A stretch of 64,000 nt of DNA from Syntrophobacterales bacterium. GTDB taxonomy: Bacteria > Desulfobacterota > Syntrophia > Syntrophales > UBA5619. This document shows positions 4,927-49,709 of the stretch, one piece after another. Position numbers and translations under genes: made by a program. The notes under the pieces are model-generated. The model searched no databases and was not told the origin of the DNA. It saw only the letters and a list, made by a program, of their open reading frames with translations. Each line of letters opens with the position of its first letter. Within the stretch, counting starts at the first letter, position 1. The stretch is taken from NCBI GenBank assembly GCA_019429105.1, contig JAHYJE010000019.1, positions 1-64,000 of the forward strand, read 5' to 3'.

Positions 4927-4975
4927 AAAAAAGTTTGCCAAAGGAAGATTTATGCGGTAGAAAAACAACGATTAA

Positions 4976-5046
4976 AGCAAGGGGTGCCTGGTTAAGGCTG
5001 AGATAATACCCGTTGAACCTGATCTGGGTAATGCCAGCGTAGGGAA
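4976..5046 (+). promoter_or_regulatory. TPP riboswitch (THI element)
   Basis: The sequence carries the conserved thi-box blocks in order: GGGGTGCC, then CTGAGATAATACCC, then GAACCTGATCTGGGTAATGCC, closing with the AGCGTAGGGA block. This is the canonical thiamine-pyrophosphate aptamer. It precedes thiN-thiD-cytX, all thiamine genes, which supports the call. I did not identify a clear terminator between the aptamer and thiN; the 132-nt leader (5047-5178) could hold a start-masking structure, so the mechanism is open. Confidence 0.95.
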
Positions 5047-5178
5047 TTATAGGTTTTTCCTGTCGCGTTTTGTGGCCGTATCCTTGATTGGGGGTGCGGC
5101 TTTCTTTGTTTTACAGGCGACTTTTACGATTGCGCCCCGTAAAAAGAAGAATGATAAACCCGGAGAGGAACAGCGGAT

Positions 5179-9778: not shown

Positions 9779-10561
9779 ATGCGTTCAGTTTTAGCAGGAG
9801 CTCTTCTTTGCGGTTTGACAGTGGTATTTGTCCTGATGTTTTCCGGGTGTAGCGGTCCGTTGGTGCGCCGCCTCCCGCCCCATCCTGAAAGAACGGCGGT
9901 CATTGAAAAAAAAGCCCTGCCGCGCCTGGGATACACCATTCAGGCAGGGGCCTTCGCCAGTGCGGAGAACGCCGCGGTCTTTACCCGTCGGTTAAAGGAT
10001 GACGGGCTTGATTCAACCTATTTTGTCGCCCGCGAGGGACTCTACAAGGTTCGTTTCGGCAATTTTGTCTCGAAAAAGGAGGCCCGCGATCTTGCTGAGA
10101 AACTAAGGCAGAAGGGGGTAATCGCCGAGTTCTACATAGTAAGTCCCGAGCAATACTCAGCTTCCCGGAGGGATAAACGCGGCGACGCCTATTTCCGGGA
10201 GGAACTGGTCAAAACCGCCCGGAGCTTTCTGGGGGTTCGCTACCTCTGGGGCGGTGAATCCGCCGAGACGGGTTTCGATTGCAGCGGCCTGACGATGACC
10301 GTTTACCAGCTCAACGGCATGGCTTTGCCGCGCAACTCCCGTGAGCAATTTGCGGCAGGAAATTCCGTGGAAATTTCTTCGGTACAGAAGGGGGACTTGA
10401 TTTTTTTCGCCGGGGTGGGCAGCAAGGTCTCACATGTCGGCATTTATATCGGTGATGACAAGTTCATCCACGCCCCGGGAAGCGGCAAGAAAATAAGAAT
10501 CGACACCCTGGCAAGGGATTATTTCCGCCGCACCTTCGTCGGGGCGAAATCGTACCTGTGA
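9779..10561 (+). CDS. SPOR-NlpC/P60 lipoprotein, peptidoglycan endopeptidase
   Basis: I place the start at the ATG at 9779, giving 260 residues that begin with a lipoprotein signal (hydrophobic core, lipobox FSGC with Cys24); an earlier in-frame start would add a sequence derived from the repeat element. A SPOR domain (about 50-121, GYTIQAGAFASAENA) should bind denuded glycan at division sites. The NlpC/P60 domain follows (about 138-260) with the catalytic Cys168 (GFDCSGL), His219 (SHVGIY) and His231 (FIHAPG). It therefore probably cleaves peptide stems of peptidoglycan in the periplasm. Downstream, on the other strand, lies an integron-type R-M cassette. Confidence 0.88.
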   Translation: MRSVLAGALLCGLTVVFVLMFSGCSGPLVRRLPPHPERTAVIEKKALPRLGYTIQAGAFASAENAAVFTRRLKDDGLDSTYFVAREGLYKVRFGNFVSKKEARDLAEKLRQKGVIAEFYIVSPEQYSASRRDKRGDAYFREELVKTARSFLGVRYLWGGESAETGFDCSGLTMTVYQLNGMALPRNSREQFAAGNSVEISSVQKGDLIFFAGVGSKVSHVGIYIGDDKFIHAPGSGKKIRIDTLARDYFRRTFVGAKSYL

Positions 10562-10587: not shown

Positions 10588-12210
10588 CTATTCTCCTGAT
10601 AGACAAAGCTCCGCCGCGCCGCTATGAAGCGCACTAAAATAGCGATCAGGTGCAGCGCCTTGTTGAGCGCTCATAATTCTTGCCATCAAATTATTGCTCA
10701 TTTGAATTGCTGAATCTTCATCAATTTTAGCTTTATCAATCACCTCCTCGGCCTCCCTGTCATCCATTATTTCAAATTGACTTTGGTTTGGGCACAAACT
10801 ATCGTTGAGATCGCCTGGCTCAAACTTATCTAATCCATCCCCATAACTTCGTTTATTAGTTTTCAATATCTCTTGCCCGAAGTCGCTTAGCAAATAAACA
10901 AACAGTTTGTTGGTAAGTTGTTCTCCAAACAAATTTGGATAAAAGCAGTGGAAACATGTAAAATTTATGGCCGATGTGAAATTTCGTATAACCTTTAAAC
11001 GCCCGCGGCTAAAAACGCCGAACAAAATTGGAGCAGGTTTTCTGTTTTCAATTTCATACCAGAGATGCCTTGTTTTTGTAAGATACCGCTTGTGATACCC
11101 CAGTTTTTCGCCTTCTTTTATGTATTTTTGTATTTCCTGGTTCGCATGATCTTTTACATCTAAACAATGAACCGGTTTATCCTCATCATAAAGCCTATCG
11201 AAATCATCCTCCGTAAATACAGCTTTTCGTATTTGGGAGCTTCTAACAATACATTTACAATAATTATTTCCCGATAGGTGATACTTCTCAATTTTTGATT
11301 TTGTTAGCGCAAAAAAATCATTTGCGCCGGTAGCTATGCCCCTGGTAAACGAACCATATAAAGACAATTTACAAAAATTATTTGGTGATTCTCGTTCAGA
11401 GAATAATGATAAAATAATAGGAGACCACTTTTTGTTGTACGGCAAATCCCCAGGCGTAACTTCTTTCTGATAGAAATTATTAATATCAGATATTCCATCA
11501 AGTTCTTCGTTGGCTTTGATATCTGTTATTTTTATGTTTTCTTTTTTCCCGTCATTTTTACAAAGAAGCACACAAACGGTTGTTGTAGCATCGGGGAAGA
11601 TTTCTTTTTCATTTGAAAAGATTATTATTTGCTTTAACAAATGATTATTGAGGAGACTTTTCTTGATTTCTCTCCCATAGCCGGTATTAAAAAACTCAAA
11701 GGGCATAATAAACGCCAAATTTCCATTAATATTAAGCTCCGTTAATGACTTTACAAGGAATACAGAAGATATGTTCGAGTACCCAATAAGTTTTTTCCCT
11801 ATTTTTTCTTCGATTTTTGGCAGGATGTCATGGCGTTTAAGAAATTTCTGAAACCTCATATAGGGAGGATTGCAGATTATCCCGTCAAAAGAGCCAACGT
11901 CAGCTTCCAGGTAGTCAGTATTGATAACTCGCAGGTTTTGACTTTTGCCGTTATGATTAAGATAAGTGATGATATGGTTGTCAATCTCGTATCCAGTGAA
12001 CGCCACTTGATTTATTGAATTAATTTTTATTATTTCATCGTAAAAAACGCCTAAACCAAATGCAGGATCTATAACTGTTCCCGGATTATCTTTAATAACC
12101 CATTTTGCCATAAGCCGGGCAACGGGGGGGGGCGTAAAAAACTGGCCATAATCTTTCCTGTGATTAAGCGGGGTTTCATCTATGTATTTTGATTCACGCA
12201 TTAATAACAT
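10588..12210 (-). CDS. Type II N6-adenine DNA methyltransferase
   Basis: A 540-residue protein. YGQFFTPPPVARLMAKW near residue 22 and the SAM motif IDPAFGLGVF (about 46-56) are followed by the catalytic NPPY tetrad (about residue 114), an order typical of gamma-class adenine methylases. The remaining 350 residues would be target recognition and dimer regions. It overlaps the endonuclease gene upstream by 17 bp. The DNA is much richer in A and T than the flanking genes, which implies transfer. The final 27 codons are GC-rich and are read from an attC-like recombination site (10595-10668), so the native C-terminus may have been extended. Size of both partners reminds me of the AccI system; this is unverified. 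Confidence 0.85.
   Translation of the reverse strand: MLLMRESKYIDETPLNHRKDYGQFFTPPPVARLMAKWVIKDNPGTVIDPAFGLGVFYDEIIKINSINQVAFTGYEIDNHIITYLNHNGKSQNLRVINTDYLEADVGSFDGIICNPPYMRFQKFLKRHDILPKIEEKIGKKLIGYSNISSVFLVKSLTELNINGNLAFIMPFEFFNTGYGREIKKSLLNNHLLKQIIIFSNEKEIFPDATTTVCVLLCKNDGKKENIKITDIKANEELDGISDINNFYQKEVTPGDLPYNKKWSPIILSLFSERESPNNFCKLSLYGSFTRGIATGANDFFALTKSKIEKYHLSGNNYCKCIVRSSQIRKAVFTEDDFDRLYDEDKPVHCLDVKDHANQEIQKYIKEGEKLGYHKRYLTKTRHLWYEIENRKPAPILFGVFSRGRLKVIRNFTSAINFTCFHCFYPNLFGEQLTNKLFVYLLSDFGQEILKTNKRSYGDGLDKFEPGDLNDSLCPNQSQFEIMDDREAEEVIDKAKIDEDSAIQMSNNLMARIMSAQQGAAPDRYFSALHSGAAELCLSGE
10595..10668 (-). other. attC-like integron recombination site
   Basis: On the minus strand the site opens with GCTCAAC, which fits the inverse core RYYYAAC, followed by AAGGCGCTGCACCTGATCGC, then the inner hairpin CGCTAT...ATAGCG around GTGCGCTTC, then GCGGCG...GAGCTTTGTC. 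In one frame this would read NKALHLIAI...RFIAA, which is almost the NKALHLTAI..RSIAAGEL peptide that environmental attC sites commonly encode. The GTTRRRY core expected right after GAGCTTTGTC is missing and replaced by TATCAGG, which is where flanking DNA would begin after insertion. The site lies at the 3' end of the methylase gene, exactly where a cassette carries its attC. Confidence 0.75.
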
Positions 12211-13252
12211 CCCTTAGGAATATTTTGTTATCAAGATATCCTTTCCCGCCTTCAAAGGCGACGTAAAACAGTAGCCGGCCTCTGTCTAATTCTTTCATGG
12301 CGGATTTATGTCCAGGCATATCGATCTTTCCCAAGACTTCTTTCCCAACTTGTACATTTATTTTTATCGTAGTTTTACCTTGATTTTTAACATCTCGCTC
12401 AATAGAGAAATTATTGCCGTCATTGTTATCGTTTGAGATCAACGTCAAAATATCCTTAAAGGATATTATATAGGCTTTGTCAAAAAATACCTGTAGATAG
12501 AAATGTTTGACATTGTATTGCTGTATCCACCGGTTGACGAGGGCAATATCTTCCATTTTGGGGGTAATGCTCAAATAATCACGTTTATGCAATATCTTGA
12601 TGTTTTCCTTTATGTCTTTCAATAATGCTGTTAAATCTCTCAACTCTTTTGTTAATGACCATGAGGGACAACGAAAGTCCAATTCTTTAAATGTATCATC
12701 TGTAGCATTTGCTATGAGATTGTAGATTGTCTCATTTTTACGCCTTAATAGATTGTCAAATGCAGTGTTTAAAATTGCATTTTTGATTTCGGTGCATTTA
12801 TTAATGGCCTGCTGTTGCCTGCTGCGCATGAACGCCGCATACTTATCTGCTAAAAACGAACTTGATTTAACTTCAAGAGCAGCCACCGCTCGCCTTATGT
12901 GCTCATCATTTTCGATATCAATACTTCGCGCGGGGAAATCGCTGACCCTGAATATTAGTATATCCGGTCTTTTCCCTATGGCATTGAGCTCACTCTGATA
13001 TTCCATATAGAAATCGGCAAACCCGTCATCGCCTGCGGCTATTGATTCAGAACGTCCATACTCAACAGCAAAATAATCATCTGAGTATTCATTTATTGCC
13101 TTAGAAACAATTTTTTCTGCCCAATCGCCCTGCTCTTTGTTCGTAAGAAATTCAGAGCTTGCCATCGTCGGTGGGTGGCCGCACATTTGTATTTCAGTAT
13201 TAATTTCCAGCGGCGATTGTTCAATCAGGTCACTAATGTCGTATTTGTACAT
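12194..13252 (-). CDS. Type II restriction endonuclease (PD-(D/E)XK)
   Basis: A 352-residue protein encoded directly upstream of, and overlapping, the adenine methylase. A PD-(D/E)XK nuclease core is visible: Glu64 (VEYGRSE), Pro96-Asp97 (GKRPDILIF) and Glu127-Val-Lys129 (ALEVKSSSF). The rest is AT-rich, charged and without other domains I know. Position, overlap and motif argue for the restriction enzyme of the pair; similarity to the AccI-type enzymes is suggested by lengths but untested. The start ATG at 13252 lies 24 bp after a GTTATGC core-like site, leaving almost no room for a promoter, as in integron cassettes. Confidence 0.75.
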   Translation of the reverse strand: MYKYDISDLIEQSPLEINTEIQMCGHPPTMASSEFLTNKEQGDWAEKIVSKAINEYSDDYFAVEYGRSESIAAGDDGFADFYMEYQSELNAIGKRPDILIFRVSDFPARSIDIENDEHIRRAVAALEVKSSSFLADKYAAFMRSRQQQAINKCTEIKNAILNTAFDNLLRRKNETIYNLIANATDDTFKELDFRCPSWSLTKELRDLTALLKDIKENIKILHKRDYLSITPKMEDIALVNRWIQQYNVKHFYLQVFFDKAYIISFKDILTLISNDNNDGNNFSIERDVKNQGKTTIKINVQVGKEVLGKIDMPGHKSAMKELDRGRLLFYVAFEGGKGYLDNKIFLRDVINA

Positions 13253-13275
13253 ACAATATCTTTCTTAATTATTAA

Positions 13276-13282
13276 GCATAAC
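13276..13282 (-). other. Integron core-like site at the 5' end of the R-M cassette
   Basis: On the minus strand GTTATGC occurs 24 bp before the endonuclease start and 25 bp after the stop of the cupin gene. GTTRRRY-like sevenmers, including this variant, mark the 5' boundary of integrated gene cassettes. Alone the motif is weak; its value comes from the attC-like site at the other end and from the composition change that begins here. Confidence 0.5.
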
Positions 13283-13306: not shown

Positions 13307-13684
13307 CTACACCCTCCCGTAGTCGTCCTCTGAGCGTTCGATATCGTCCTCTCCGAAATAGTCGCCGGTCTGCACCTCGATAAAAACCACATTTGCCGTG
13401 CCGACGTTGCGGATGCGGTGCCAGGCAAGTACCGGCAAATCCACGGATTGACAGGAGTTCAGGCTGATCTCCTCGCCGTTTCTGGTCACAACGGCCTCGC
13501 CGCTTACTACGTACCAGTGTTCCGAACGGTGAAAATGGCGCTGGAGACTGAGCCTTTGACCCGGATAGACGGTGATTCGCTTTACCTTGCTGTCCGCTGC
13601 GTCGGAGAGAACTTCGTAAAAGCCCCAGGGGCGATGATCGCTGTCTATCTTCTGGTCGGCGGTTTTCTTGTCAGATGGTTGCAT
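13307..13684 (-). CDS. Cupin, mannose-6-phosphate isomerase type II-like
   Basis: A 125-residue single-domain cupin. RPWGFYEVL at the N-terminus, the metal-binding motif LQRHFHRSEHW with GEAVV, and LPVLAWHRIRN near the C-terminus match the C-terminal isomerase domain of bifunctional mannose-1-phosphate guanylyltransferase/phosphomannose isomerase (type II). Stand-alone copies are common and are linked to GDP-mannose or related sugar supply, but substrates are often unproven. GC content is that of the chromosome, unlike the R-M cassette right after its stop. Transcription through this gene would run into the cassette. Confidence 0.82.
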   Translation of the reverse strand: MQPSDKKTADQKIDSDHRPWGFYEVLSDAADSKVKRITVYPGQRLSLQRHFHRSEHWYVVSGEAVVTRNGEEISLNSCQSVDLPVLAWHRIRNVGTANVVFIEVQTGDYFGEDDIERSEDDYGRV

Positions 13685-47615: not shown

Positions 47616-49709
47616 ATGAGCACCATGATAGAGAAAATTAGAAACATCGGGATTAGCGCGCACATTGATTCGGGAAAAACGACGCTGACGGAACGTATTC
47701 TGTTTTACACCAAAAGAATCCATGCCATTCACGACGTCAAAGGCAAGGACGGCGTTGGCGCCACCATGGATTCGATGGAGCTGGAGAAGGAACGGGGCAT
47801 TACCATAGCCTCCGCGGCTACCTTCTGCCAATGGCAGGATTATGAGATAAATATCATCGACACCCCCGGGCATGTGGATTTTACCATTGAGGTGGAGCGC
47901 TCGTTGCGCGTACTGGACGGCGCGGTGCTTGTGCTCTGTTCTGTCGGCGGCGTTCAGTCCCAGTCCATTACCGTTGACATGCAGATGAAAAGGTACAATG
48001 TTCCCTGTATTGCCTTTATCAACAAATGCGACCGCAGCGGCGCCAATCCGGAGCGGGTTGTTTCGCAGCTTCGTTCCAAATTGGGTCACAACGCAGTGGC
48101 AATGCAGATACCGATAGGTTTGGAAGCCAATTTCCAGGGGGTTGTCGATTTGCTGTCCATGAAGGCGCTTTATTTTGACGGCGCCAACGGAGAGATTATC
48201 CGTGTTGAAGAGATTCCTCCCGAACTTCTGGCGGCCGCTCGCAGCAAACGCGAGGAACTGATCGATGCCGCTTCGCTTTTTTCTGACGAACTGACCGAGG
48301 CGATTCTCGGGGAAACCGAGGTTACCGAGGAAATGATTGCCAGGGCCGTCCGCAAAGGCGCCCTGACAAGAAAAATGACCCCGGTTTTCATCGGTTCTGC
48401 CTACAAAAATAAGGCGGTGCAGCCGCTTTTGGACGCAGTCATCAAATATCTGCCCTCTCCGGACGAGGTGGTGAACACCGCCCTTGATCTGAATCACGAT
48501 GAGGCGCCGGTTGTTCTTGACTCTGATCCGACAAAGCCGATTGTTGCTTTGGCCTTCAAACTGGAAGAGGGGGCTTACGGACAGCTTACCTACATCCGCG
48601 TTTATCAGGGCATCCTGGAAAAGGGCGCGACCATCGTCAACACGCGCACCGGTAAAAAAACCAAGGTGGGGCGGGTTGTGCGGATGCATGCCGATCAGAT
48701 GGAAGACATGGAGTCAGTCTCGGCCGGGGTCATCGGGGCGCTTTTTGGAATCGAGTGTTCCTCCGGAGATACGTTTGTCGCTCCTGGACTCAACCTGACG
48801 ATGACCTCAATGTTTGTTCCCAAACCGGTTATTTCGCTGGCCATTGTTCCGAAGGACAACAAGGCGCAGATAAATATGTCCAAGGCGCTCAACCGTTTTA
48901 CCAAGGAAGACCCGACGTTTCACACCCATGTGGATGAGGAAACGCTGGAGACGATCATCGAGGGGATGGGCGAGCTGCATCTGGAAATATACGTCGAGCG
49001 GATGAAAAGGGAATACGATGCGGAAGTCGAAACAAGCAAGCCGCGCGTCGCGTATCGCGAAACGATAACCCAGCGGGGCGAGTTCAATTACACGCACAAG
49101 AAGCAGACCGGCGGCTCCGGCCAGTATGGCCGGGTTGCCGGCTATATGGAGCCTATAACCGAGGGCGACGAGGATTTCATCTTCGACAATCAGATCAAGG
49201 GCGGTTTGATCCCGACCAATTTTATTCCCGCTTGCGAAAAGGGCTTTCAACTTTCGATGGCCAAGGGGCCCAAGATGGAGTTTCCGGTGACCGGCGTCAG
49301 GGTCGTCATCAACGATGGGGCTTACCACGCGGTTGACTCGTCGGAAATGGCCTTTCAGGCTGCCGCCCGCGGCGCCTTCCGCGAGGGGTATGCAAGGGCG
49401 AAGGCGGTAATTCAGGAGCCGATCATGAAGGTTGTCGTCGAAACGCCGACGGAGTTTCAGGGTTCTGTCATGGGCCTGCTCAATCAGCGGCGCGGGATGA
49501 TCGTCGGCGCCCAGGACGAGGGAGTAATGACGGTGGTTGAATCTCAGGTGCCCCTTTCCGAAATGTTTGGATTCTCCACGGTGTTGCGCTCTTCGACTCA
49601 GGGTAAGGCGCAGTTTACGATGGAATTTTCCATCTACCGGCAGGTTCCGCTGTCAGTCGCGGAAAAGCTCGCCGAGGAATTTGTCCAGAAGAAAAAAAGC
49701 GAGGCATGA
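47616..49709 (+). CDS. fusA: Elongation factor G, spdEFG1/mitochondrial EFG1-like
   Basis: A 697-residue translocase with all five EF-G domains. G1 [10 protein letters not shown]2 ERGITI, G3 DTPGHVDF and G4 NKCDR are present; note AHIDSGK in place of the usual AHIDAGK. The N-terminal region ([27 protein letters not shown], here split by position) and [17 protein letters not shown] resemble mitochondrial EFG1 and the spd type of delta-proteobacteria, spirochaetes and planctomycetes rather than the usual str-operon EF-G. No rpsL, rpsG or tuf is nearby. The start follows AAAGGAAGTGGT. Confidence 0.9.

Follow-up and report, generated by a model that had tools for sequence, protein, structure and literature searches.

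An AccI-family restriction-modification pair in a decayed integron-type cassette, very probably inserted singly between host genes

Integron cassettes that encode restriction-modification (R-M) systems have been reported (Buongermino Pereira 2020 and Ghaly 2021, as cited in PMC9892861), and R-M cassettes are found in the integrons of Xanthomonas as well (PMC12444791). Insertion of cassettes at attG sites is attributed to Loot et al. (2024, Nat Microbiol) where that work is cited in PMC12444791 and PMC12901181, and the authors of IntegronFinder 2.0 (PMC9024848) point out that a lone attC can be genuine. R-M cassettes belong to a known kind, and so do stranded cassettes. Here we analyze a 64,000-nucleotide stretch of the genome of a Syntrophobacterales bacterium (assembly GCA_019429105.1, contig JAHYJE010000019.1, positions 1 to 64,000; referred to as the window), in which the original prediction had placed a solitary integron-type gene cassette carrying a type II R-M pair. 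The locus very probably holds a single, horizontally acquired R-M cassette of the AccI family, with GTMKAC as its predicted recognition site, that was inserted by an integrase at an attG-like site and whose attC has since decayed.

The R-M module (window 10602-13281, minus strand, 2.68 kb) consists of two overlapping genes situated between a cupin and an NlpC gene. An AT-rich block with a step in composition at each end had been noted initially, and this is borne out by a GC content of 0.373 (37%), as compared with 0.52 (52%) in the host DNA on both sides. The features of the locus are as follows.

9779-10561, plus strand: host SPOR-NlpC/P60 gene (PF00877, PF05036), on the other side of the cassette and convergent with it
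10588-12210, minus strand: N6-adenine DNA methylase, 540 aa, NPPY motif (PF02384, PF07669)
10597-10668, minus strand: decayed attC site (cmsearch with model R1, 43.2 bits, E 2e-11)
12194-13252, minus strand: AccI-family type II restriction endonuclease, 352 aa, full length (PF09545 RE_AccI)
13276-13282, minus strand: 5' cassette boundary, G↓TTATGC, R' type core, read directly
13307-13684, minus strand: host cupin gene (mannose-6-phosphate isomerase-like, PF01050), upstream of the cassette and co-directional with it

Nearly the whole length of the endonuclease is covered by its match to PF09545 RE_AccI (E 3.7e-114, 382 bits), and the protein is also recognized by PADLOC REase_II (E 4.8e-101); no solved structure matching it was found. 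The methylase, with N6_Mtase and Eco57I domains, matches PADLOC MTase_II (E 5e-106) and its start overlaps the end of the endonuclease gene by 17 bp. In a comparison with the homologous locus L078 the endonuclease has a dN/dS of 0.08 and the methylase one of 0.18. The cupin gene has an orthologue, 79% identical, in the same-genus genome G001, where it adjoins the same SufC-like ABC gene, and the SPOR-NlpC/P60 gene has matches in 94 of 100 relatives. These host genes lie ~25 bp from one cassette end and ~45 bp from the other. Because the room upstream is only ~25 bp, putative readthrough from the cupin gene may drive expression of the R-M pair; a promoter scan returned about as many sites as expected by chance, and a candidate hybrid promoter over the 5' junction (13295-13268) was not significant. 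An Rfam search of the locus at gathering thresholds yielded nothing. Elsewhere in the window, a TPP riboswitch (Rfam RF00059, 67.6 bits) is located on the plus strand at 4970-5062.

All of the motifs named in the original prediction are present on the minus strand, with GTTATGC at 13282-13276, GCTCAAC at 10668-10662 and GAGCTTTGTC at 10611-10602. The 5' edge reads CTCCCCG↓TTATGC and the 3' edge GCTCAACAAGGCGCTGCACC...GAGCTTTGTC↓TATCAGG. GTTATGC, which is 23 bp ahead of the endonuclease ATG (13252) and one mismatch from the GTTRRRY consensus, is by itself weak evidence since in a few percent of cases a GTTRRRY match would lie within 30 bp by chance; the leaders of homologous loci carry GTTGGGT (L078), GTTAGGC (L083) and GTTGGGC (L086) at the same place. 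For the 3' edge we used a covariance model, R1, comprising 16 attC sites with the classical attC stem that were gathered by pattern from related genomes and from two R-M loci, the window site being left out. A cmsearch run with this model aligns all 72 model positions to 10668-10597 (minus strand) with 43.2 bits and E 2e-11 for the window, a score far beyond chance that provides independent confirmation of the attC-like site proposed for the methylase 3' end.

The site is, nevertheless, more decayed than had been assumed. R'' (GCTCAAC) and L'' are intact, the L' arm is altered, with GCGCGGCGGAGC in place of GGCAGGTGAGC (a 2-nt expansion plus substitutions), and the GTTRRRY core is missing, TATCAGG standing there instead. 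The hairpin CGCTAT/ATAGCG that had been pointed out does exist, but the full attC stem, folded as single-stranded DNA, is no better than shuffles (z ~+0.3; +0.27), whereas two intact attC sites of the same genome reach -2.8 to -2.9. With such a fold and TATCAGG at the core position we regard the site as a relic and have filed the element as a decayed (former) cassette, one that is probably immobile given the altered L' arm, the lost core and the lost fold. The overlap of attC with the methylase gene also holds, although the open reading frame in fact continues through attC to its end and reaches its stop only at 10588, in host DNA, so that attC and host DNA together encode the last ~24 methylase codons. 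The change in L' led to loss of the methylase stop and hence to extension of the frame by 14 nt into host DNA; in loci L083 and L087 the stop lies inside attC. Because GTTATGC is an imperfect GTTRRRY and the 3' core is lost, the crossover point can be fixed to ~4 bp at best. A weak attC-like match on the plus strand at 48854-48901 (15.6 bits, E 0.024), 38 kb from the cassette, is probably due to chance.

Relatives of the endonuclease were sought in the genomes of ~85,000 species. Close ones (75-91% identity) occur in Planctomycetota, Cyanobacteriota, Bacteroidota, Desulfobacterota, Ignavibacteriota and a bin called Proteobacteria; plasmid records contain no relative. The endonuclease tree places the window protein in a 100/99 clade in which ~six phyla are mixed and which does not follow phylum, and the R-M pair is absent from 142 of the 149 genomes of the order. 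DNA similarity to the relatives covers both genes, starting at the leader and ending in or near attC. In a Desulfamplus MAG (L087) the same pair, with 76% endonuclease identity, adjoins a full, divergent integron integrase (338 aa; TIGR02249, 444 bits with a cut-off of 265) whose distance to the endonuclease start is ~260 bp. The methylase there is followed by an intact attC (83 bits), and the whole is arranged like the first cassette in an integron. A Bacteroidetes MAG (L083) has the pair flanked by two attC sites, one closing a peroxiredoxin-like gene and the other, of 81 bits, the pair's own. The L083 and L087 scores are not independent, as both sites belong to the training set of the model, and the attC architecture in each is plain by eye. 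The idea that the pair is an integron-type cassette is thus corroborated by loci in which it sits beside a full intI or between attC sites. Decay can be followed as well: two Microcystis loci (L080, L081) retain the 5' half of attC at the same codon, L078 has R'' only, and attC is missing from L082, L084, L085, L088 and the unrelated carrier G134, whose pair adjoins recA. All of these carriers fall within the 100/99 endonuclease clade. In the relatives that lack attC the methylase ends in different short tails. An attC that starts at the same codon in both subclades suggests that the cassette state is probably old in the clade and has been lost several times.

The home genome (G000; 3.1 Mb, 95 contigs) contains further integron-related sequences. 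The prediction that the window lacks an integrase and a second attC is correct for the integrase, and no intI match was found anywhere on the window's contig; elsewhere in the genome, however, there are fragments of intI as well as nine further attC sites (E<=1e-3), distributed over contigs C11, C20 (four), C24, C43, C73 and C85, the two or three lowest-scoring sites being possibly marginal. Several of the nine close R-M, toxin-antitoxin, defence or addiction genes. On C20 (7460-12816; L168) four same-strand attC sites form a small defence-rich cluster without an integrase, closing a type I HsdR gene, an addiction-module pair, an MjaI-type R-M pair and a zeta-toxin-like gene. A second single-attC unit (C43 2385-3875; L169) encodes an N6/N4 methylase and a PD-(D/E)XK-like protein of 181 aa and ends in an intact attC (73.6 bits). 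The genome-wide search for intI that had been proposed gave broken pieces only, with no full intI in the assembly: matching 91-aa C-terminal pieces lie at contig ends (C3:6-275 and C7:90467-90736), and broken pieces are found on C9 and C28. The near-identity of the 91-aa pieces suggests a repeated intI that broke the assembly. An integrase-like gene on C85 was not counted as intI, its score being below the intI cut-off and slightly better for a XerA-type recombinase. Three tyrosine recombinase genes are arranged in tandem on C46 (343-3081). Within the family, full intI is present in 3 of 21 genomes and strong attC sites in 12 of 21, mostly one per contig.

In the explanation that we favor, the AccI-family R-M cassette would have come by horizontal transfer from the environmental cassette pool, and an integron integrase, acting on a non-integron (attG-like) site, most likely placed it there as one cassette, with the cupin gene on one side and the NlpC gene on the other. 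Subsequent decay of attC would then have left a fixed chromosomal R-M system. No empty site that could be aligned was obtained from the relatives: in G001, the only same-genus genome, the NlpC and cupin genes are at separate contig ends and the intergenic sequence does not align, while in two other family members NlpC is followed directly by the SufC-like gene, the cupin gene being missing. Assuming that the terminal G has changed to T, the empty site would read CTCCCCG↓ATCAGG; G↓TCTATCAGG is another reading.

The prediction had left it open whether the cassette was inserted singly or stranded from an array. The C20 cluster, with four attC sites in one orientation, and the broken intI pieces are what one might expect had a longer array or integron, with its intI, once occupied this locus and been deleted down to this cassette. 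We think this improbable. The host genes begin ~25 and ~45 bp from the cassette ends, which favors insertion of a single cassette; two precise deletions would be required, and there is no significant second attC or intI remnant nearby, the weak attC match being 38 kb away. A different route, in which homologous or illegitimate recombination moved the pair and the attC relic came along as a passenger, is similarly unlikely. The five carriers without attC, including G134 with its pair beside recA, do establish that the pair can settle without attC, but in the window the unit of similarity is the cassette unit at both ends, from leader core to attC. One can practically dismiss the idea that the attC-like sequence reflects chance or the coding of the methylase C-terminus and was never a recombination site, for although the methylase frame passes through it and it no longer folds, the independent model gives E 2e-11, intact attC sites are found at the same codon in L083 and L087, and methylases of relatives without attC have different short tails.

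AccI recognizes GTMKAC, and we examined how often this site occurs. In the 61.3 kb of window DNA around the R-M genes there are 0 GTMKAC sites where 21-25 are expected, and in 461 kb of the home genome 23 are seen versus 171 expected (ratio 0.135, ~7-fold depletion). All four GTMKAC words are within the five most depleted of 4045 hexamers in the home genome, and GTMKAC is the most depleted of 96 degenerate palindromes both there and in G134 (ratio 0.34-0.39). A separate count across whole genomes used GTCGAC. It is also top-depleted of the 96 in pooled flanks from three AccI-family clades (ratios 0.18, 0.11 and 0.21). Next to AccI-family genes this holds over many phyla (L078-L157), and the counts in the two distant clades are 8 versus 76 and 23 versus 109 expected. 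As controls, two members of the G134 family without the pair, G089 and G094, show little or no avoidance, with GTMKAC ratios of 0.97 and 1.02 with a maximal-order Markov model and 0.81 when pooled at order 3, and smaller pooled control sets give 0.56-0.85, so that part of the order-3 effect is background, but not the 5- to 7-fold loss. A point against our explanation is that G001 avoids GTMKAC equally (0.14-0.17) and neither R-M gene was found in it; either that pair has only recently disappeared, or the bin omits an AT-rich contig. Strong genome-wide avoidance in G000 and G001 extends to CAGCTG (0.06-0.09 of expected) and CATATG, which suggests that other R-M systems are or were resident in the genus.

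According to Rusinov et al. (PMC4687349), avoidance tracks the residence time of orthodox type II systems, and the AccI-type system here is therefore probably old. Since most copies of the predicted target are gone from the genome, the system has probably both resided there and been active over a long period. Site avoidance bears indirectly on GTMKAC as the predicted recognition site of this AccI-type system, and on that prediction the methylase would protect GTMKAC and the endonuclease would cut unmodified incoming DNA. The pair may well be active at present, and its loss may harm the host.

What makes the locus of interest is the cross-phylum cassette lineage, with its decay series and site purge. 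One R-M cassette lineage may, and we propose this only tentatively, have spread through integrons in ~six phyla and repeatedly settled in chromosomes as a single cassette, the attC decaying while the pair is kept by selection and its sites are purged by the host genome. If so, R-M genes would form a class of cassette that stabilises itself, making a permanent chromosomal defence out of something mobile. The locus brings together three processes that tend to be treated separately, integron cassettes as a store of anti-phage defence, single-cassette chromosomal insertion, and restriction-site avoidance, the last serving as a record of R-M residence time. Carriers with an intact, a partly decayed or a missing attC allow the route by which a mobile cassette becomes a fixed defence gene to be tested directly.

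Set against known systems, the locus resembles described R-M integron cassettes in that its R-M genes are ended by attC and that the same pair occurs in an integron (L087) and between attC sites (L083), but the window cassette stands alone in the chromosome, its attC has decayed and its target site has been purged from the genome. As in single-attC or CALIN cases, the attC has no neighbouring integron integrase, although the window site lacks a usable R' core and fold. As in insertion at attG, one cassette lies among host genes at a place that is neither attI nor attC, although no empty site was found for the window locus and the route is deduced. Finally, the pair shares with the AccI R-M system a Pfam RE_AccI match over nearly its full length, an adenine methylase partner and avoidance of GTMKAC; unlike that system, the window pair is organised as an integron cassette.
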